Positions 1 to 13,216 of a DNA stretch of 64,000 bases are shown piece by piece (position 1 is the stretch's first letter; every line of letters begins with the position of its first letter). The DNA is from Leptotrichia hofstadii. Lineage in GTDB: Bacteria; Fusobacteriota; Fusobacteriia; Fusobacteriales; Leptotrichiaceae. The stretch spans positions 744,001 to 808,000 of the forward strand of contig NZ_AP019823.1 of NCBI RefSeq assembly GCF_007990525.1. Direction: 5' to 3'. A program made the position numbers and the translations under genes. The notes beneath the pieces are model-generated. The model did not search any database and had not been told where the DNA came from. It was given only the letters and a program-made list of their open reading frames with translations.

Positions 1-3000
1 CAGACTCAACTCTTGGGGACGGGCGAGAATGAAATATTTGGAACAAGAGAAAGCGGAATTTTTGAAAAATCTTCTAATGAAGGGAGAAGTTATGGAACAT
101 CTATTTTCAATTCAGAAAGAAGTGGAGAAATTTTGGGAGATAGAAAAACCCAAAATGATGAAAACTATGGGATTAACCGAAGAATTAAAAGAAAAAGATC
201 AAATGGAATGGGTAAGGCTTATGAACAGCCTACTCTCTTCTCTCAGGGAAATAACTTACAATCAGATAATTTACAAATAGAAAATGATAATATAATTACT
301 CAAAAGAATATTGACGATGTATTAAAATCATACAGTGGAGCAGAAAATATTTATAATTTTTTTCAAGATAACAGTTCAAAGGAAGATAGAATAAAATATT
401 TGAAATGGGAATACGGAACAGGCGGTTTTTCAATACCTGACCGTGGAGATTTTATTGATGATGCCTTTTATACTTCTAAAAATATGAAGTTATATAAAAA
501 TCATTTTAGTGCTAATGAAGTTAAGGTAGTTCTGTCTTGGAACAAAATAGAAAAGAGAATACAGGAACTTATAGATGAAAATCAATATTTTATTCCTGAA
601 AAGGAAACAGAAAATATTATTGAGAATGATGAAATAATATATCCTTATATAGATGAAGAAAATAGTAAAGATAATATTTCTAAAAATTTTAAAATTGCTG
701 AAGAAATTCAGTCTGAAAAACTGTTACCATCAGAGCGTCTAAACAATAATATCGAAGCTATAAAAGTTTTAAAAAATTTGAAGGAAAGAAAAGCTGCAGA
801 TGATGAAAAGATAACACTTTCTAAATATGTTGGATGGGGTGGACTAGCTGATGTATTTGATGAAAATAAAGGTGGACAATGGGAAGAAGCAAGAAATTTT
901 TTAAAAGAAAGTTTGACGCAGGAAGAATATGATAATGCTAAGGCAAGTACATTGACAGCCTTTTATACACCTAAAATAGTAATTGATTCCATTTATAAAG
1001 GAATACAGCAATTTGGATTTGAAGGCGGAAATATTTTAGAGCCAAGTTGTGGTGTGGGAAACTTTATAGGTAATTTGCCTGATGAATTAGAAAACTCCAA
1101 GATATATGGTGTGGAACTAGACAGTATCAGCGGAGATATTGCTAAAAAACTTTATCCTGAAAGTAATATTCAAGTAAAAGGATTTGAAAAAACAGAATTT
1201 TCCAACAATTCATTTGATGTTGTGATAGGAAATGTTCCTTTTGGAAATTTTAAGGTAATGGACAGAGAATATGAAAAGCAGAACTTTATGATACACGACT
1301 ACTTTATTGCAAAATCATTGGATAAAGTGAAAAAAGGTGGAATTATGGCTTTCGTAACTTCTTCTGGAACATTTGATAAAAAGGATGACAGCGTGAGAAG
1401 ATACATTGGAGAAAGAGCGGAACTTCTGGGAGCAGTAAGGCTTCCAAATGATACATTTAAAGGCGTTGCTGGAACTGAAGTAACATCGGATATTATATTT
1501 CTAAAGAAAAGGGAAAATATAAATAAAGATGAGCAGGACTGGTATGCGGTTAAATCTGACTCTGAAGGATTTGTATATAATCAGTATTTTGTGGATAATC
1601 CTAATATGGTTTTGGGGAAAATAGAGGAAGTTAGTGGACGTTTTGGGAGAACATTAACTTGTATGCCAAAAGAAAATAGTAATTTAAAGGATGAATTAGA
1701 ACAAGCAGTTGGGAATATAGAAGGAAGTTATGAAAAAACTCTCGCTGAGGAAAAAGAAACTGTAATTGCTGTTGAAAATGAAGACTATGAAATAAGAAAT
1801 TTTTCATTCTTCAAAAAAGATAACGATATTTATTTTAAAGAAAATAGTGAAATGATATTACAAGATTTATCAGATAGAGATAAGGATAAAATATCAAAAT
1901 ATATAGAACTGACATCTTCGTTAAGGAAAGTTATTCAGATTCAAAAAGATGGGGAAACAGATGATAGATTAAAAATCGAACAGGAAAAACTAAATAGAAT
2001 ATATGATGGATTTATTATTAAGCATGGATACTTAAATTCAAGAGCAAATTCGAGATTATTTACTGAAGATTCTAATTATTCCTTATTATCTTCAATAGAA
2101 ATATTTGATGAACGTGGAAACTTTAAGAAAAAAGGGGATATTTTTTCCAAAAGAACTATAAAGCAATCAAAAGTTATACATAGAGTAGATACTCCGCAAG
2201 AAGCATTAATTCTTTCAATTTCTCAAAAGGCAAAAGTGGATTTTGAATATATGACAGATCTTACTGGTATGAAAAAAGAAGAGTTAATTAACAGTTTAAA
2301 AGGAGAAATATTTCTTAATATAAATCAAGATTTTCCACAGGAATTTCAATATGTAACACAAGATGAATATTTAAGCGGAAATATAAGAGAAAAAATAGAA
2401 TATATTGACAAATTTAATTCTCTTTCTGATGAAGAAAAAAAAGGAATAAGCCCTGAAATACTAAATTTTCAAAAAGAAAAATTACAGGAAGTAATGCCTA
2501 AGCCACTTGAAGCAAGCGAGATAAATGTCAGAATAGGAGCAACTTGGGTTCCTAAAAAGCATATAAAGGACTTTATTGTGGAAACATTAAAGACACCAGC
2601 ATATAAAAGTTCATACATTAAAGTTCATTATTCTGAATATAATTCTGAATGGAGAATAGAAAATAAGAATATGGATAATGATAATCCCCTTGCTGTTATG
2701 ACTTTTGGAACTGAAAGGGTAAATGCGTACAAACTTATAGAAGATTCTCTAAATTTAAGAGATACAAAAATTTTTGACTATGAAACAGATTCGGAAGGTA
2801 AAAAAATAGCAATTTTAAATAAAAAGGAAACTATGCTGGCAGGACAAAAACAGGATATTATTAAACAGGCTTTTAAAGATTGGATTTTTAAGGATTTGGA
2901 AAGAAGAAATGAATTAACTAAGATATATAACGAAAAATTTAATTCAATTCGACTAAGAGAATATGATGGAAGCCATCTTACTTTTAATGGCATAAATCCT

Positions 3001-5469
3001 GAAATAAAATTAAGACCACATCAGTTAAACGCAGTTGCAAGAACATTATATGGTGGAAATACACTGCTTGCACACGTTGTGGGAGCAGGAAAAACTTTTG
3101 AAATGGTTGCTTCTGCAATGGAGTCAAAAAGACTTGGACTTGCAACAAAATCAATGTTTGTTGTCCCTAATCATTTGACTGAACAGCTAGGAAGAGAATT
3201 TTTAGAACTTTATCAAGGAGCAAATATTCTTATAGCGACTAAAAAGGATTTTGAACCTAAAAATAGAAAAAGATTTATTGGAAGAATTGCAACTGGAGAA
3301 TATGACGCTGTAATAATAGGACATTCTCAGTTTGAGAAAATACCAATGAGTAAGAATTATCAAGAGAAACATATACAAAATGAAATAGATGAGATTATAC
3401 AAAATATCCAAACATTAAAGCAGGAAAATAATCAGAATTTTACTGTAAAACAGCTTGAAGGTACAAAAAAGAAACTGGAAGTAAGGCTAAAAAAATTAAA
3501 TGATGATTTTAAAAAGGATAATGTCGTTACATTTGAAGAATTAGGAGTTGATAAGCTGTATGTGGACGAGGCACATTCATTTAAAAACTTGTTTTTATAC
3601 ACTAAAATGAGAAATGTGGCTGGAATAGGACAAACTGAAGCATTAAAATCATCGGATATGTTTATGAAATGTAGATATATGGATGAAATAACAGGTGGAA
3701 AAGGAGTTGTATTTGCGACAGGTACACCAGTTTCCAACACTATGTCGGAACTTTATACAATGCAAAGATATTTACAGTATGATGAGCTTAAAAAACAAGG
3801 ACATCAAAATTTTGATTCTTGGGCAAGCACATTTGGGGAAACAGTTACAGCTATTGAATTATCTCCTGAAGGAAATGGCTATAGAACTAAAACAAGATTT
3901 GCAAAATTCTACAATCTTCCTGAACTTATGAACAATGTTAAACAGTTTGCAGATATACAAACTGCCGATATGCTAAATTTGCCAACACCTGAAGTAGAGT
4001 ACAAAAAAGTATTGACTAAACCGACAGAGGAACAGAAATTAATATTAGAAAGCCTTTCAGAAAGAGCAGAAGAAGTAAGAAACAGAAATGTAGAGCCAAC
4101 AGAAGACAATATGTTAAAAATTACAAATGACGGTAAAAAACTTGCATTAGATCAGAGGCTTGTAAATGAAATGCTTCCCGATGATGAAAACAGTAAAGTA
4201 AATGCTTGTGTAGAAAATATTTACAATATATGGAAAGAAAATGTTGAAAAAAAATCTGCACAGCTTGTATTTTCTGATATGTCTACTCCCAAAAACGATG
4301 GAAGTTTCAATATTTATGAAGATTTAAAGGAAAAGTTGATTAATAAAGGTATTCCTGAAGAAGAAATAGCATTTATTCATAATGCAAATTCTGAAAAACA
4401 GAAGGACGAACTTTTTGCAAAAGTAAGAACAGGAGATGTAAGAATATTGCTAGGTTCAACACAAAAAATGGGAGCAGGAACAAATGTACAGACAAAACTA
4501 ATTGCACTTCACGACTTAGATGTGCCGTGGCGTCCTGCTGATTTGGAGCAACGGGCAGGAAGGATAGTCAGGCAAGGAAATGAAAATAAGAAAGTGGAAA
4601 TTTACAGATATGTTACTGTGAATACATTTGACGCTTATTTGTGGCAAACTATCGAGAATAAACAAAAGTTTATAAGCCAAATTATGACTTCAAAAACTCC
4701 AGTCAGAGTAGCAGAAGATGTTGATGAAAGCTCTTTAAACTATGCTGAAATAAAGGCACTTGCAACTGGAAATCCTTTAATTAAGGAAAAAATGGATTTG
4801 GATATGGAAGTAAACAAGTTAAGAATGCTTGAAGCTAATTACAAATCAAACTTGTATCGTCTTGAGGATAAAATAACAAAGGAATATCCTGCAAAAATTA
4901 GTAAAATGGAAAAATATATTGAAAATGTGAAGGAAGATATTTCTAAAATAGAGCCAAAATCAAATAATGAGAATAAATTTACATCTATTGAAATTAACGG
5001 AACCAAAATTTATGATAAAAAAGAAGCTGGAGAAGAGCTTTTAAAAGCTATAAAGGGTACTGGAATATCTGATGAGCTTCAAATTATTGGAAATTATAGA
5101 GGATTCAAACTGTCTTCAAATTTTGACTTCTATGAGAAAAAATATAAATGTGTACTGGAAAATAAAGAAAAATATTATACTGATTTTGGGAAAGATTCAA
5201 TTGGAAATATAACGAGAATGGATAATCTATTAGATAAGATTGCTGAAAACTTAGAAAAAGAAAAGGTAAGACTTGAAAATTATAGAGAAGAATTTTCCAA
5301 TGCAAAAGAAGAAGTTAATAAGTCGTTTGAAAAAGCTGACTTATTATTAGAAAAGATTAAAAGATTAAGTGAGGTTAATAAACTAATAGAAGTAGGGATG
5401 AAGGAGAAAGAAAGTGTTAAGGAAAAGGAGGATGTTCAAGATTTGGATAATGAAGATTTTGAGAGATAA
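1..5469 (+). CDS. DarB-like N6-adenine methyltransferase/SNF2-type helicase, 5' end outside window
   Basis: The reading frame is open from base 1, so the gene begins upstream and the TTG at 13 need not be its start. Counting from 13 there are 1818 residues. A methyltransferase core is visible: a SAM-binding EPSCGVGN near residue 343 and the catalytic NVPF near 407. A superfamily 2 helicase follows, with Walker A GAGKT near 1024, DEAH near 1185 and motif [12 protein letters not shown] near 1513, then a charged coiled-coil tail. This fusion is known from conjugative elements and from phage P1 DarB, where it is linked to anti-restriction. A role in protecting transferred DNA is inference. It is followed by a terminator and lies next to a type III restriction system, which fits a mobile island. 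Confidence 0.85.
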
Positions 5470-5650
5470 TATAAAAAAATATTTATAGAGATTAAAAATA
5501 TTTGAGTTTGTATTTTTAGATTTAATTTATATTTTAGAACAGTAATTTATTTAGATTGAATAGAATTTATTATATATTCCCAAAATCAAGGGATAATTAA
5601 TAGACACTAATAACATTGAATTAGATTGTGTTTTTGTGATAAAATTAACA

Positions 5651-5692
5651 AAAAACAGGAAGTGAAACAAAATTGTTTTATCTTCCTGTTTT
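5651..5692 (+). terminator. Intrinsic terminator or stable hairpin after the helicase gene
   Basis: An 11-base arm at 5652-5662 pairs with 5682-5692. An inner AAACAA/TTGTTT pairing extends the stem. The right arm ends in TTTT and a T-rich stretch follows. It probably ends transcription from the helicase gene before the restriction operon promoter. The 180 bases between the stop codon and the hairpin show nothing else I can support. Confidence 0.6.
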
Positions 5693-5699
5693 AGTTTAA

Positions 5700-5793
5700 A
5701 AATACACACTATAACTACAATTACAGATTGACTATTTTTAGTAAATACGATATAATAATTACGAGAAATAATTGTATTGTGAGGTGTGTATTT
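5700..5793. repeat. Interrupted inverted repeat framing the restriction-operon promoter
   Basis: The outer arms 5700-5709 and 5784-5793 are exact 10-base reverse complements. The inner arms 5716-5723 and 5769-5776 are exact 8-base reverse complements. The spacers within the arms (6 and 7 bases) do not match. The promoter lies between the arms, and the right arm includes the ribosome binding region of the winged-helix gene. Possible roles are a paired operator for that regulator or ends of a small invertible segment. Confidence 0.65.
5728..5756 (+). promoter_or_regulatory. Sigma-70 promoter of the type III restriction-modification operon
   Basis: TTGACT at 5728-5733 and TATAAT at 5751-5756 are separated by 17 bases, a near-perfect housekeeping promoter. 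Transcription would begin near 5763, giving a leader of about 30 bases before the ATG at 5794. Confidence 0.8.
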
Positions 5794-6063
5794 ATGATTA
5801 ATCTTAATTTGTTTGCTAATGATACATATAAATTACTTAAATTTTTATATGATAATCAAATACAGGTAAAAGAAGATTATTATGTAGTTTTATCTCAACA
5901 GGAAATAGCAGATATACTGCATTATTCAAAACTAAAAACAAATAATATAATGAAAGATTTAAGGAATAATGATTTTATAACCACTTTTAACAATAAACGT
6001 GGCAAATATATGATTACTAATAAAGGTTATAAAGTTATTGAAATTTTAGAAAGGAAATATTAG
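5794..6063 (+). CDS. Small winged-helix DNA-binding protein
   Basis: The ATG at 5794 is preferred because GAGGTG lies seven bases upstream and because an upstream start at 5728 would fall inside the promoter. The 89-residue product resembles a helix-turn-helix/winged-helix domain: LSQQEIADILHYSK looks like the recognition region, followed by a basic wing near NNKRGKYMITNKGYKV. It is the first gene of the restriction operon and ends four bases before mod, so an autoregulator or timing regulator of restriction-modification is likely. That role is inferred from position and fold only. Confidence 0.75.
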   Translation: MINLNLFANDTYKLLKFLYDNQIQVKEDYYVVLSQQEIADILHYSKLKTNNIMKDLRNNDFITTFNNKRGKYMITNKGYKVIEILERKY

Positions 6064-6067
6064 ATGT

Positions 6068-7966
6068 ATGATTTCAAAAAATAGAGAAAAAATGAAAAAG
6101 AATATTTTTGAATATGTAGGAGATTTGCTAAAAACAGAGTCTAAATACACTTCAAAAGATGGTAAATTGTTAAAAACGTCTATTTATAATGATATAATGA
6201 CAATGAATGAACAATTACTTTCGTTATTATTAAGTGATGAACTTGTTAAAGAAAGATTTTTTAAAAACCTTAATGGAATTTTAATTTTTGATAAACAAAA
6301 ATTTGCATGGTTTATAGAGTCTAAAGAATTTTTATCTGATTCATACACAAGATATATAAATAAAATAGGGCTAACACATAATGGTAATTATATTTCTAAA
6401 TCAAATGATGTAGTTTTAGACTTCCCTTACAAAGATTGTGTACTTGAAGGTGGGCAAGACAAGGATGACCAAAAACGAAAAGAAATTTTTTATAATGAAA
6501 TTATTGCGAGTGAAGAAATAAACAGAATGTTAGCACCCAAAGTCTTTACCAAAGCTAAAAGATATTCAAAAAATGGTGTAGAAGAAAACATCACTTTTAA
6601 TGATGATGACAATTTAATAATAAAAGGGAATAACTTAATTGTATTATCAAGCTTATTAAGAAGATACGAAGGTAAGGTAAAATGTATTTATATAGATCCG
6701 CCATATAACACTCGAAATGATAGTTTTAATTATAATGATAGTTTCAATCATTCTACTTGGCTTATATTTATGAAAAATAGGTTGGAATTAGCAAGAAAGC
6801 TCTTAAAAAATGATGGAGTTATTTTTGTTAGTTTGGATGACAGAGAAGCACATTATTGTAAAGTATTAATGGATGATATTTTTGGTTCAGACAACTATTT
6901 GAATGACATCATTTGGAATTCAACAAAATCAGTTACTAATACCGCTATTATATCTGTATCACATACACATACATTAGTTTATTTTAAAAATAAAGATTAT
7001 TTTGTTAAAAATAGAACTGAATTTAGAGTTAAAGATAACGGAGAAGGATTTTCAAATCCAGATAATGATTCAAGAGGTCCATGGAAAGCAGACCCTTTTC
7101 AAGTAGGAGGTTGGCGTCCTAATCAACAGTATGAAATAGTGAATCCAAAAACTGGCAAAGTATATCTCCCCAACGAAGGTTGTAGTTGGAAAAATGATTA
7201 CGATAAATTTCAAGAACTTTTAAAGGATAATAGAATTATTTTTGGTGCTACAGGAGAGTCGGGTCCCCAAAGAAAAAGATTTTTATACGAGGCAAAAGAA
7301 AGAGGTAAAGTTGTTAAAACTATTTGGGATGATGCAGGAACAACAACTAATGGTACTCAACACTTGAAAAAATTATTTGGTAAAAATGTTTTTAGTAATC
7401 CAAAACCAGAACAGTTTATTAAGAAGATTCTAGAACTTTCTACAAAAGAAGGCGATCTAGTTTTAGATTACCATTTGGGGTCAGGTACAACTTGTGCTGT
7501 AGCTCATAAGATGAGGAGAAAATATATTGGTGTAGAACAAATGAACTATATTGAATCAATAACTTTGGAACGTATGAAAAAGGTTATTTTAGGTGAAAAA
7601 GGAGGAATTTCAGAAGAGACAAAGTGGAATGGAGGGGGTACATTTGTATATTGTGAAATTTTAGAAGATGCTAAAAATCTTATGAAAATGATTGATGACT
7701 CAAACGAAAGTAATATTGATGGTTTAAAAAAACTTATATATACAGATGAAAGAATAATACCATATGTAAATAGATATGAGTTAGAGAATTTAGATTTAGA
7801 GTTTGAACAGCTTGATTTTGATGAAAAAAAAATAGTATTGAAAAAATTGATTAATAAAAATAAGTTATATGTTAATGATTCGGATATCGACGATTCAAGA
7901 TATAACGTATCTGAAAATGATAAAAAATTTACCAGCTCATTTTATGGAGGAAAAAGAACATGTTAA
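6068..7966 (+). CDS. mod: Type III restriction-modification methyltransferase (Mod)
   Basis: This 632-residue protein has the order of a beta-class N6-adenine methyltransferase: the catalytic DPPYN motif near residue 215 comes before the SAM-binding motif, which reads DYHLGSGTT near 473 (commonly D-F-F-x-GSGTT). The part between them should contain the target-recognition domain that sets the sequence modified by Mod and cut by Mod-Res. The start at 6068 is chosen because the ATG at 6064 is in a frame that stops at once. It overlaps the next gene by seven bases, which suggests translational coupling. No simple repeat that could cause phase variation is seen inside the gene. Confidence 0.92.
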   Translation: MISKNREKMKKNIFEYVGDLLKTESKYTSKDGKLLKTSIYNDIMTMNEQLLSLLLSDELVKERFFKNLNGILIFDKQKFAWFIESKEFLSDSYTRYINKIGLTHNGNYISKSNDVVLDFPYKDCVLEGGQDKDDQKRKEIFYNEIIASEEINRMLAPKVFTKAKRYSKNGVEENITFNDDDNLIIKGNNLIVLSSLLRRYEGKVKCIYIDPPYNTRNDSFNYNDSFNHSTWLIFMKNRLELARKLLKNDGVIFVSLDDREAHYCKVLMDDIFGSDNYLNDIIWNSTKSVTNTAIISVSHTHTLVYFKNKDYFVKNRTEFRVKDNGEGFSNPDNDSRGPWKADPFQVGGWRPNQQYEIVNPKTGKVYLPNEGCSWKNDYDKFQELLKDNRIIFGATGESGPQRKRFLYEAKERGKVVKTIWDDAGTTTNGTQHLKKLFGKNVFSNPKPEQFIKKILELSTKEGDLVLDYHLGSGTTCAVAHKMRRKYIGVEQMNYIESITLERMKKVILGEKGGISEETKWNGGGTFVYCEILEDAKNLMKMIDDSNESNIDGLKKLIYTDERIIPYVNRYELENLDLEFEQLDFDEKKIVLKKLINKNKLYVNDSDIDDSRYNVSENDKKFTSSFYGGKRTC

Positions 7967-8442
7967 GCAATAGTAAAAAAATATCTAAAATTGATGATTC
8001 TAGTAAAAAATTTATAATGGATTGTTTGGGTAATAATAATACGTACGGATTTGATATAGATTCAATTTATTTTGTGGATGGTCAATGGTATTTGTTTGAA
8101 TATTTAAAATGTGAAAATGAATATATGAATCCACACACCAGCAACCCAAAATACTATCCTTGGAATTATAAGAAATTTTTGTCTTTGTATAAAATAAAGA
8201 ATGAATTGAACGGAAAATTATTTTTAATAAACTATAGTGATCGAGAATCAGACCGTGATTTAGTGAAAGTTATGGAAGTAATTGGTATTAAAGAAGATTT
8301 GATAAATAATTATATTAAATCTACAACAAAGCCAAAACAATTAGAATATTTGATTATAAAAGAAAAAAATACTACAAGAAAAGAATTTGGATTATGGTTA
8401 AGAAAATTAAATGATAAAGCAGGGGAAACAGGAATTGTTTAG
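7960..8442 (+). CDS. Unknown protein between mod and res
   Basis: This 160-residue protein overlaps the end of mod by seven bases and ends eight bases before res, so it belongs to the operon. I do not recognise its family. The stretch around IDSIYFVDGQWYLFEYLKCE has an acidic residue before a hydrophobic strand carrying glutamate and lysine, faintly like a PD-(D/E)xK nuclease core, but the E-to-K spacing is not standard. No signal peptide or membrane segment is seen. It could be a small accessory subunit of the restriction enzyme. Confidence 0.75.
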   Translation: MLSNSKKISKIDDSSKKFIMDCLGNNNTYGFDIDSIYFVDGQWYLFEYLKCENEYMNPHTSNPKYYPWNYKKFLSLYKIKNELNGKLFLINYSDRESDRDLVKVMEVIGIKEDLINNYIKSTTKPKQLEYLIIKEKNTTRKEFGLWLRKLNDKAGETGIV

Positions 8443-8450
8443 GAGGACTG

Positions 8451-11057
8451 ATGGAATACTTATACGATAAAATAGAACAATATAGAGAGCTTGTTGGGTG
8501 TAAAGACGTTCCTAATAGCATTTTAACAAATCTTTCTAATAGAATATTATTACGTGATTATCAAGAATATGCACTAACTAATTTTATATCATATTACGAA
8601 GATGAAAAATTATTAAAAAATAAACAAATTCATACACTTTTTCATATGGCTACAGGAAGTGGAAAAACCGTCATAATGGCAGCTCTTATCCTTTATTTGT
8701 ACACAAAAGGGTACAGAAATTTTTTGTTTTTTGTAAATCAGACAAACGTACTTGAGAAGACGATTGATAACTTTATCAACACACTTTCTAATAAGTATTT
8801 GTTTAATGATGTGATTGAACATTTAGGCAATAAAATCAAAATTAAAAAAGTTGATAATTTCAGTGGGAATACATTAGATGATGATATTGAAATACTTTTT
8901 ACAACTACTCAAAAATTTCATATGGATTTATTTGAAGCAAAAGAAAATTCTATAACTTATGAAGATTTTGAAAACAATAAAGTTGTGTTTATTTCAGATG
9001 AAAGTCATCATATTAACTCACTAACTAAGAAGCCAACTAAAGACGAGGAATTAGTAAAAAGTAGTTGGGAATATTCAGTAATGAATGCTTTTCATAGAAA
9101 CAGAGATAGTATTATGCTCGAATTTACTGCAACTTGTGATTTAAAAGATAACAATGTTCTTGCAAAATATCAAGATAAAATTATATTTAACTATCCTTTA
9201 AGTTCTTTTAGAGAAAGTGGATACACTAAAGATTTTCAAAATTTTGCAACAGATACGGATTTATGGACTAGAACTTTAATCGCATTAGTAATGAGTGAAT
9301 ACAGAAAATTTCTGTTCACAGATTTAAAGTTAAATATAAAACCTGTAATAATGTTAAAATCTCAAAAAATATCAGAGTCTGAAAGTTTTTATGTTGAATT
9401 TTTTAAAAGCATTAAAAATCTTACAACAGATGAAATTAAGAATTTGGAGTTAATTGGAATCAATATATTGAATAAAGCTATTAAATATTTTGAAAAAAAA
9501 GATGCTAGTTTAGAAATTTTAAAATGTTCTATAAAAAATTCATTTACAGAAGACACTTCTATTATTATGAATGGTTCGTCTGATAATAACAAAGAAAATC
9601 AGTTATTGGTAAATTCACTGGAAAACACAGACAATCCAATTAGAACAATATTTGCGGTTGATATGTTGAATGAAGGTTGGGATGTATTAAATTTATTTGA
9701 TATAGTTCGTTTATATGATACTAGACAATCAAGTGGAAAAATTAGCACATATACAATCAAGGAAGCACAATTAATTGGTAGAGGTGCAAGATACTGCCCA
9801 TTTATTGATGAAGATGAGGAATTGAAGTTTAGACGTAAATATGATGGAGATTTAGAAAATAAAAATAGAATACTAGAAACAATGTACTTTCATAGTAAAA
9901 ATGATTCTAAATATATTTCAGAGTTAAAACAGGCTTTGATTGCAACTGGTCTTCAGGCACAAGCTCCTGTTACGATCGAGTATAAGATTAAAGATGATTT
10001 TAAAGATAGTGATTTTTATAAAAAAAGTTATGTGTTTTCAAATAAAAGAATACCTAAAGGAAGAGATAGTGTTACAACTATTGAACCAAGTATGAGAACA
10101 AAAATTTATTATTATACTGCTCTTTCTGGAAAAGGTAATGTAATTAACTTATTTGGAGATGAAACGAACAATCATAATTCAATAAATGCTAAAACAAAAA
10201 GAATAAAATTCAAAGATATAGACTTAAACATTTTATTAGGCACTAGCGAATATTTTGAAGAGTTACGATTTGATATTCTAAAGAAAAAATATCCCAACTT
10301 AAATTCTAAGACAGAATTTTTTACTTCTGATAACTTTATTGGAAATTCAATTTTAGAAATAACATATACTTCTGATGAACTTTCCGGAAGAGATATATTT
10401 TTAGCATTAAAAAAAGCATTTATTTCAGTTTCTTCTTATGTGGGTTCATTAAAACAAGAATTTGTTGGTTCTACAGAGTTTACACCTAGAAAGTTGAGAG
10501 ATATATTAAAGGATAAAAAGATTTATATGGGACAAATAAATACTGATGTGGGCAAAGGGGCTTCACAAAATCATTGTACAAACGATGAATATAGACTTAA
10601 TTTAAGTAATGAAAATTGGTATGTGTTTAACGATAATTATGGTACAAGTGAAGAGAAATTGTTTATAAAATATTTCAAAACTTCGATTGAACCTAAATTA
10701 AACGAAAAAGAATTAGAATATTATGTTATTAGAAATGAGAGAATACCAGAACTTGCAATTTATTCGTTTGAAGCAGGAGAAAGATTTGAACCGGACTTTT
10801 TACTTTTTGTAAGGAAGAAAAATAATGGAGTAAATTTAGCCTATCAAGGATATATTGAACCTAAAGGTACGCATTTATTAGACCATGATATGTGGAAAGA
10901 AAAATTTTCTTTAGAAATAGAAAATGTGGCGACAACTGATAAAACAGTTCCTGATAATTATAAAATAATAGGTTTTCCATTTTTTAATAAAGAAAACAGA
11001 ATGGAAAAATTTGAAGAAGCAATTAACACATGGCTTAAGTTTAACGTACTAAAGTGA
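8451..11057 (+). CDS. res: Type III restriction endonuclease subunit (Res)
   Basis: The 868-residue protein has superfamily 2 helicase motifs: Walker A ATGSGKT near residue 67, a DESHH motif II near 183, TAT as motif III, and QLIGRGAR as motif VI near 440. The C-terminal nuclease shows EPDF followed by YIEPKGTH, the PD...ExK arrangement of Res subunits of the EcoP1/EcoP15 type. It uses ATP to communicate between sites and cuts DNA in complex with Mod. GGAGG stands just before the ATG at 8451. All motifs look intact, and a terminator follows directly. Confidence 0.92.
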   Translation: MEYLYDKIEQYRELVGCKDVPNSILTNLSNRILLRDYQEYALTNFISYYEDEKLLKNKQIHTLFHMATGSGKTVIMAALILYLYTKGYRNFLFFVNQTNVLEKTIDNFINTLSNKYLFNDVIEHLGNKIKIKKVDNFSGNTLDDDIEILFTTTQKFHMDLFEAKENSITYEDFENNKVVFISDESHHINSLTKKPTKDEELVKSSWEYSVMNAFHRNRDSIMLEFTATCDLKDNNVLAKYQDKIIFNYPLSSFRESGYTKDFQNFATDTDLWTRTLIALVMSEYRKFLFTDLKLNIKPVIMLKSQKISESESFYVEFFKSIKNLTTDEIKNLELIGINILNKAIKYFEKKDASLEILKCSIKNSFTEDTSIIMNGSSDNNKENQLLVNSLENTDNPIRTIFAVDMLNEGWDVLNLFDIVRLYDTRQSSGKISTYTIKEAQLIGRGARYCPFIDEDEELKFRRKYDGDLENKNRILETMYFHSKNDSKYISELKQALIATGLQAQAPVTIEYKIKDDFKDSDFYKKSYVFSNKRIPKGRDSVTTIEPSMRTKIYYYTALSGKGNVINLFGDETNNHNSINAKTKRIKFKDIDLNILLGTSEYFEELRFDILKKKYPNLNSKTEFFTSDNFIGNSILEITYTSDELSGRDIFLALKKAFISVSSYVGSLKQEFVGSTEFTPRKLRDILKDKKIYMGQINTDVGKGASQNHCTNDEYRLNLSNENWYVFNDNYGTSEEKLFIKYFKTSIEPKLNEKELEYYVIRNERIPELAIYSFEAGERFEPDFLLFVRKKNNGVNLAYQGYIEPKGTHLLDHDMWKEKFSLEIENVATTDKTVPDNYKIIGFPFFNKENRMEKFEEAINTWLKFNVLK

Positions 11058-11606: not shown

Positions 11607-11930
11607 TTGATTATGAACAAGAGAAGTAAAAGGTACACAGATGAATTTAAAATGTTAATTTTAGAATTGCTGGAAGAAGGAAGAACAAAAAAATCATTAG
11701 AAAATGAATATGGGGTAGCAACGACAACAATCAGAAAATGGGAAAAAGAATTTAAAGGAATCATAGATAAAAAATACAATGCTAACGAAGCTTTAAATGA
11801 AATTATGGCCTTAAAAAGGAAACTGCAACAAGAAATGGATAAAAATAAAAAATTAGAAAAAGAGCTGGAACCAAAGGAATTAGATATTGACATATTAAAA
11901 AAGGCATCAGCCATATTGATGAAAAAATAA
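11607..11930 (+). CDS. IS3-family transposase OrfA (helix-turn-helix subunit)
   Basis: This is a 107-residue basic protein with an N-terminal helix-turn-helix (KRYTDEFKMLILELLEEG, then TTTIRKWEKEF) and a C-terminal leucine-rich coiled coil ending near DILKKASAILMKK, the standard OrfA plan. The TTG at 11607 has AAGGAG at ideal spacing; an ATG at 11613 is the alternative. The gene ends in A-AAA-AAT-AA, a place where a -1 ribosomal frameshift can produce the OrfAB transposase. Confidence 0.88.
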   Translation: MIMNKRSKRYTDEFKMLILELLEEGRTKKSLENEYGVATTTIRKWEKEFKGIIDKKYNANEALNEIMALKRKLQQEMDKNKKLEKELEPKELDIDILKKASAILMKK

Positions 11931-12827
11931 GGACCGTTGACAAGTACGCATTAGTAAAGACTTTATTCAATGAGTTTAATGTTTCAAAATCAAGAATAAT
12001 TAATTTAATAGGCATTAAAAAAAGCAGCTATTACTACTGGGTTAAAGAGGTCAAGACACAAAGGGATATAGAAAATAAAATTTTGTACGATATAATAAAA
12101 TCAATATGGCAAGACAGCAGAAAAACTTACGGAGCAGTAAGAATTCATAAAAAACTAAGAAAGTTAGGATTAGAAGTAAACATAAAACGAGTCAGAAGAT
12201 TGATGAAGGAAAATCAGATAAAGTCAATAATTCATAAAAAATTTAGAAATTATAACAAATCAGATGATATAAAAGAAGCAGCAAGAAATATTTTAAAGAG
12301 AAATTTTGATACAGAAAAATTAAATGAAAAATGGGTAAGTGATATAACATATATTTGGACAAGAAAGGACGGGTGGTGCTACTTATCAAGTATAATGGAT
12401 TTGCACAGCAGAAGAATAATATCACATAAGGTTGGAAAATTTATGGATATAAAATTAGTTATCGATACCTTAAAAATGGCGATATATAAAAGAGGGGATA
12501 TAACTGATCTGATAATACATACAGATAGAGGAAGCCAGTATATGAGTAAAGAATATCGTAAATTTTGTGCAAAAAAAGGCATAAGCATAATCTTACAGCA
12601 GAAAAGGAAATCCTTATGATAATGCATGTATAGAATCATTCCATGCAACATTGAAAAAAGAATATGTACATAATGAAAACTATGAAAATCTAGAAAGTTT
12701 AAGAAGTGGAATGTACGAGTATATAGAAATATGGTATAATAACAGCAGAATACACAGTAAAATAGGATTTACAAGTCCGAATGAATACGAAGAAAGCATA
12801 AAGAAAGGAAACAAAGAAATTGCTTAA
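11921..12827 (+). pseudogene. IS3-family transposase OrfB with a frameshift before the catalytic glutamate
   Basis: The orfB frame is entered by -1 slippage at the A run near 11922-11927. The integrase core shows the first catalytic aspartate in VSDITYIW and the second in HTDRGSQY. Near 12595 one extra base shifts the frame and gives an early stop at 12619. The other frame continues with GNPYDNACIESFHATL, which holds the catalytic glutamate, and ends at 12827. The DDE triad is therefore split over two frames and the transposase should be dead, unless the extra base is a sequencing error. Confidence 0.85.
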
Positions 12828-12856
12828 AAATAGTCTAAATTTTGGGGGACACTCCA

Positions 12857-13065
12857 AAAACTTTATCAATATATGAAAAATCCAGAAAATATAGATATAT
12901 ATAGGAAAACAATGGAAAGTGAGTTTTTTGAGGAGTGGTTCAGGGAAATATTTTTAAAGGATATAAAAAAATTAAGGAAGAAAGTTTTAATAGTGATGGA
13001 TAACATCCGATTTCATAGAAAGAGCATATTAGAAAAGATGGTTAAGGAAACAGCATCGTCTGTTA
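12857..13065 (+). mobile_element. IS630-like transposase remnant
   Basis: The frame from 12873 encodes EFFEEWFREIFLKDIKK followed by VLIVMDNIRFHRKS, which matches the DDE_3 region of IS630-type transposases, where the aspartate before Asn is catalytic. The N-terminal half and the last catalytic acidic region are missing. The reading frame then runs into unrelated transposase sequence. It abuts the right end of the IS3 element directly. Confidence 0.7.
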
Positions 13066-13079
13066 TTTCTTCCGCCATA

Positions 13080-13216
13080 AGGTTAAAGTGGATGGCAAGA
13101 TGAATAAAATAAAAGCTGTGCCAAAATTTTTAGACCTGATAGATATAAAAAGGTGACGCTATGGGAACACAGAAGGAAATTGTGAAAAAGATTGTAAGGA
13201 AGAATAAGGGGAGCAT
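13080..13216 (+). mobile_element. ISAs1-like transposase remnant with internal deletion
   Basis: One frame reads VDGKMNKIKAVPKFLDLIDI. After a frame change another reads DAMGTQKEIVKKIVRKNKG. These are the two sides of the well-known ISAs1-family stretch in which the leucine-rich LLDLLDI segment is followed by a short strand and then DAMG-QK. The strand between them is deleted here. Nothing else of the element remains. From 13217 to the promoter at 13287 I see no other feature. Confidence 0.6.

Follow-up and report, generated by a model that had tools for sequence, protein, structure and literature searches.

The restriction operon lying in the first part of the 64-kb stretch of Leptotrichia hofstadii DNA analyzed here (the window) has a two-part inverted repeat placed around its promoter, raising the question of whether this repeat is a control element and, if so, which protein acts on it. 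The operon consists of four plus-strand genes, tightly packed in one direction behind the promoter at 5728-5756. The first encodes an 89 amino acid winged-helix protein (5794-6063), the presumed autoregulator. It is followed by a type III methyltransferase, Mod (6068-7966; PF12564, 1.6e-24; PF01555, 1e-45; PADLOC MTase_III, 5.8e-167), a 160 amino acid protein that partially matches a type II restriction enzyme (7960-8442; PADLOC PDLC03429, 4.2e-11), and a type III restriction subunit, Res (8451-11057; PF04851, 5e-31; PADLOC REase_III, 1.3e-96). The succession of a Mod with a TypeIII_RM_meth domain and a Res with a ResIII domain identifies a type III restriction-modification operon. The 160 amino acid ORF overlaps the 3' end of mod and precedes res; the PADLOC type II restriction enzyme model is the sole relative found for its product, which had no match among 195 other related genomes searched and for which no solved relative was found. 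No relatives of Mod were found in viral contigs.

The plus-strand promoter was recognized both by reading the sequence and by a promoter scan. Its -35 hexamer TTGACT (5728-5733) and -10 hexamer TATAAT (5751-5756), 17 nt apart, agree with the consensus at 11 of 12 bases, from which we infer a transcript start near 5763. The left arm of the repeat is AAATACACAC-N6-TACAATTA (5700-5723), and the right arm is TAATTGTA-N7-GTGTGTATTT (5769-5793). The first-pass annotation had described two-part arms of 10 + 8 exact bases around a near-perfect promoter, and the coordinates and internal spacers (6 nt in the left arm vs 7 nt in the right), read directly, bear this out. The left outer arm (5700-5709), whose minus strand reads GTGTGTATTT, is a candidate operator just upstream of the -35 hexamer. 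The right outer arm GTGTGTATTT (5784-5793, plus strand), a candidate second operator, overlaps the ribosome-binding site (GAGG, 5781-5784) and directly adjoins the ATG at 5794. The inner 8-mers TACAATTA (5716-5723) and TAATTGTA (5769-5776), both given on the plus strand, are of uncertain role. Overall, the inverted repeat measures 94 bp and encloses a segment of 45-74 bp between its arms.

Inverted pairs of 10-mers placed 40-120 nt apart numbered 40 in this AT-rich window vs 29 expected; a 10-mer pair alone is not rarer than chance, and the two-part 10+8 structure is rarer. Only one two-part inverted repeat of such geometry was found in the real window, that at 5700-5793, and 60 Markov-resampled 64-kb windows yielded three (0.05 per window). 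Exact occurrences of AAATACACAC in the window were limited to the two outer arms. It is conceivable, but distinctly improbable, that the arms have no regulatory role and either resemble each other by chance or form the termini of a small, MITE-like mobile repeat. A length of 94 bp with inverted ends does resemble a MITE, and 7 of 1000 dinucleotide shuffles of the 103-nt region reach the alignment score of the repeat. Set against this, the arm core recurs at homologous regulators (see below), the break from related elements, at about 5413-5520, lies away from the arms, and no second copy of the two-part arm was found in the 2.6-Mb genome with up to two mismatches allowed, a result that speaks against a MITE or other repeat. 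At three mismatches, there were 15 genome matches vs 10 in a backward-read control. The inverted repeat exists as described; by itself it reaches modest significance, and it gains its weight from the relatives.

The arms were also considered as the boundary of the restriction module and rejected in this role, as the homology shared with related elements is lost between 5413 and 5520, not at the arms. With this end point, the module behaves as cargo in its own right, and the left arm is part of it. The gene upstream of it (13-5469), which encodes a large helicase/methylase, is about 90% identical in other genomes of the genus, with different DNA after it, as if this gene marked a cargo site; in one related genome (G010), the gene corresponding to 13373 directly follows the helicase/methylase gene, the restriction module being missing between them. 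A long self-complementary palindrome, CAGGAAG...CTTCCTG (5652-5692; 86% match to its own reverse complement), stands between the helicase/methylase gene and the restriction module, 5' of the promoter. This element looks like a two-way terminator, a function suggested by its form; a pattern scan for terminators did not call it, and the sole Rfam match, a sub-threshold miRNA, fell on this palindrome. An RNA structure formed by the two arms was rejected, because the left arm, being upstream of the promoter, is not part of its transcript and cannot pair there, and the leader RNA folds no better than shuffled sequences (z +1.2). Directly 3' of the operon, transposase-like genes (IS3-type and another) occur in short or broken frames (11607-13103). 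Beyond them, a long one-direction cluster (13373-63000) includes four similar VgrG-like genes (22487, 33882, 44495, and 53947), PAAR/Hint-like large proteins, and a sheath-like first gene, and by eye it resembles a type VI-secretion-like contractile system.

Inverted arms around the promoter and regulator of a defence operon are also what would be expected of a minimal invertible promoter, as the first-pass annotation had suggested, in which a site-specific recombinase would flip the inter-arm segment and turn the operon on or off. This proposal fared poorly, since no tyrosine recombinase domain occurs within 61 kb (the nearest lies about 61 kb away), the contig encodes a single resolvase, about 380 kb away, the segment is merely 45-74 bp long, the arms are imperfect with spacers that differ by one base, and the arm is single-copy in the genome. 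Moreover, two relatives from the same bacterial family (L007 and L008) carry the promoter in the same orientation with a left-type site only. Promoter inversion is unlikely, and a recombinase-driven switch at this locus has a very slim probability.

To evaluate the protein that may bind the arms, we analyzed the product of the first gene. Its AlphaFold2 model is a confident winged helix (mean pLDDT 88.9), and the nearest folds are the DNA-binding domains of CRP-family proteins and MepR. No family in Pfam, NCBIfam, PHROGs, or PADLOC describes this protein, the matches being weak and partial. A few genomes of the same bacterial family (L007-L009 and L011) carry homologues with the shared signature SQQEIAD...K.K.N, as do streptococci, Veillonella, Clostridia, and similar bins. 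A further search, covering a sample of a streptococcal genus and two groups of clostridia, added two loci, both streptococcal; plasmid searches returned no homologue, and phage records contained one, unannotated.

Outside the phylum of the window, the homologues stand upstream of restriction genes of differing kinds: an N6-methylase with HSDR_N (L012 and L015), an N6-methylase (L016), a D12 methylase plus a NOV_C protein (L013), two GmrSD proteins (L017), or a fused HSDR_N/N6-methylase/specificity protein (L021 and similar loci). Homologues lead type I, II, and IV systems that are unrelated to one another; the same-family relatives have neither Mod nor Res behind them. In L021, a conserved 260 amino acid protein (7236-8018) is encoded after the fused type I-like methylase, at the same place as in similar loci; it has no PADLOC family and a weak HEPN-type Pfam match (0.003). 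Two genomes (G006 and G023) harbor orphan homologues with an abortive-infection-like gene (Abi_2-type, by eye) a short way upstream (L092 2074-3003 and L094 3306-4325, reverse-complement coordinates).

Comparison of the promoters of these homologues provided evidence for a link between the arms and the protein. We performed a word search without prior choice across ten promoters (the window, L007, L008, L009, L011, L012, L013, L015, L078, and L079). GTGYA, i.e., GTG(C/T)A, was present in 8 of 10 vs 2.0 expected (p 2e-5 among 1792 patterns; Bonferroni-corrected p about 0.04, values that are optimistic, as some loci of the set are akin), and ACACY in 8 of 10 vs 2.4 expected. The arm core was the leading pentamer, next after ribosome-binding-site words. 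Among control upstream regions, taken from all larger genes of the same loci, GTGYA occurred in 10 of 38, some of these being the regulators' own. The core, as GTGTA or (A/G)GTGT, is found upstream of homologous regulators in other genera and in a second phylum, its carriers including regulators of the same bacterial family and of streptococci. In the window, L007, L008, L009, L012/L014, and L015/L016, it lies 35-48 nt before the -10 hexamer, just upstream of the -35 hexamer; in L078 and L079, where the automatic promoter call was poor, inspection places it between the likely -35 and -10 hexamers. The promoters of L011 and L013 lack the core. The arm pattern had five exact matches in viral contigs, probably by chance.

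What recurs among relatives is the core and not the pair: the paired arrangement is not generally conserved, nor are the inner 8-mers, and TACAATTA was absent from the words enriched in homologous promoters. A left-outer-arm-type core occupies a similar place, alone, in L007, L008, L012/L014, and L015/L016, and a core at the ribosome-binding site, like that of the right arm, recurs in L009 only. These observations, together with the frequency of 10-mer inverted pairs by chance, would fit a locus in which the left arm alone serves as a genuine operator, for repression or activation, and the right-arm match is a coincidence of the AT-rich leader around the ribosome-binding site. We consider this unlikely, given the restriction of AAATACACAC to the two arms and the rarity of the two-part structure described above.

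The more distant clostridial homologues have a different element, a 17-bp GGT-N11-ACC dyad over the -10 hexamer, present in 6 of 8 loci vs 0.1 expected. Its halves change together (e.g., GGTATAGTAATTATACC vs GGTAAAATAATCTTACC), and the DNA further upstream has diverged. It should be noted that related loci are not fully independent, so that the clostridial and core statistics are upper bounds on confidence. The window promoter lacks this dyad, even with one mismatch allowed in its ends, and by inspection each window arm holds only half of it.

The position of the clostridial dyad, which is that of a repressor, bears on a further alternative, in which the 89 amino acid protein would work as an activator-then-repressor switch like the controller (C) proteins of type II systems, activating from the left arm and repressing from the right arm at higher protein level. 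The arm positions suit such a switch: relative to the expected transcript start, the left arm spans about -63 to -40, a common activator position, with the right arm located downstream of the start; yet a promoter that already matches the consensus at 11 of 12 bases should need no activator. C proteins belong to the lambda-repressor type of helix-turn-helix proteins, and no C-protein family appeared among the Pfam, NCBIfam, or PADLOC matches of the 89 amino acid protein. Overall, a switch of this kind is improbable.

The reading that we favor is that the 89 amino acid winged-helix protein probably controls its own strong promoter through two flanking, mirror-image sites. More specifically, we estimate a probability of roughly 0.6 that the arms are its binding sites and exert negative control over its own promoter and, with it, the whole regulator-Mod-160 amino acid protein-Res operon. 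This proposal builds on the observed repeat, promoter, and operon layout, on the predicted fold, and on the recurrence of the arm core at homologous regulators' promoters; that the protein binds, that it represses rather than activates, that the sites cooperate, and how the operon starts up are inferred from these. The sites are symmetric and located at the regulator's own promoter, and a single-copy arm is what would be expected of a dedicated operator. Since the near-consensus promoter lies between the arms, their occupancy would most simply repress it. One candidate site abuts the -35 hexamer on its upstream side, and the other would be bound downstream of the transcript start, over the leader, the ribosome-binding site, and the gene start; with both filled, RNA polymerase would be excluded or blocked. 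The centers of the outer arms are 84 bp apart (8.0 turns at 10.5 bp) and those of the inner 8-mers 53 bp apart (about 5 helical turns), so that both arms would face one side of the helix, which would allow the two sites to cooperate or form a tight loop. On first entering a cell, the operon would then fire strongly and later settle at a low steady level. The suggestion that the arms are operators for the adjacent winged-helix protein has thus held as far as candidate operators are concerned, given the recurrence of the core and the predicted fold, whereas the delayed restriction attached to it is unsupported, as the regulator, mod, and res share one operon behind one promoter, which by itself, barring a hidden internal promoter, cannot delay Res relative to Mod.

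Among described regulators, AbiEi of the Streptococcus agalactiae AbiE system, which represses its own promoter by binding cooperatively to a pair of 23-bp inverted repeats with 3 bp between them (PMC7319586), is the closest mechanistic precedent. Both are defence-associated, first-gene DNA-binding proteins, and the inverted repeats, two in each case, are similar in size (23 bp vs 24-25 nt here), but those of the window are 45 nt apart, with the promoter between them. AbiEi also has a C-terminal antitoxin domain after its N-terminal wHTH and is followed by a nucleotidyltransferase toxin, whereas the window has no toxin-antitoxin pair, its regulator being 89 amino acids long and followed by a type III Mod. 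BrxR/CapW proteins are winged-helix repressors located before diverse phage-defence operons that bind inverted repeats, with arms of 11 bp around a spacer of 5 bp, close to the promoter of their own gene (PMC9122601), a similar arrangement of regulator gene and sites; they differ in having a WYL ligand-sensing domain, for which a bare, single winged helix of 89 amino acids has no room. CapS, of the CapK/CapS pair, is likewise a winged-helix repressor upstream of diverse immune operons that binds promoter palindromes (PMC13373217), but it has a STAS domain, a partner kinase, and the half-site TTAA. C.Kpn2I, a restriction regulator, acts as a roadblock on its own gene from a site downstream of the promoter (PMC6237814). 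Type II C proteins share with the role proposed for the 89 amino acid protein the control of a restriction operon through their own gene, but belong to other systems with other gene orders, in contrast to the winged-helix type and type III operon found here. The MepR/MarR and CRP-family DNA-binding domains, nearest in predicted fold, show weak sequence matches and occur in other contexts, and the 89 amino acid protein lacks an effector domain. By the tests made, this protein is not a member of the AbiEi, BrxR/CapW, CapS, or C-protein groups.

We tentatively suggest, as a possibility that we rate a little below even, that the 89 amino acid protein is a member of a family, as yet unnamed, of winged-helix autorepressors that lack a sensor. 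These may travel as a plug-in first gene with defence cassettes that are unrelated to one another (restriction of types I, II, III, and IV) in both Bacillota and Fusobacteriota, their operators drifting from lineage to lineage; the member in the window would clamp its promoter from both sides through a distant, mirror-image pair of sites. The ways in which restriction systems spare a new host and have their level set are known mostly for type II controller proteins. The candidate operator is directly testable, and the signature SQQEIAD...K.K.N can be used to find further defence operons. If the proposal is true, restriction operons of all four types (I-IV) would share a minimal regulator, a portable expression governor for defence cassettes.
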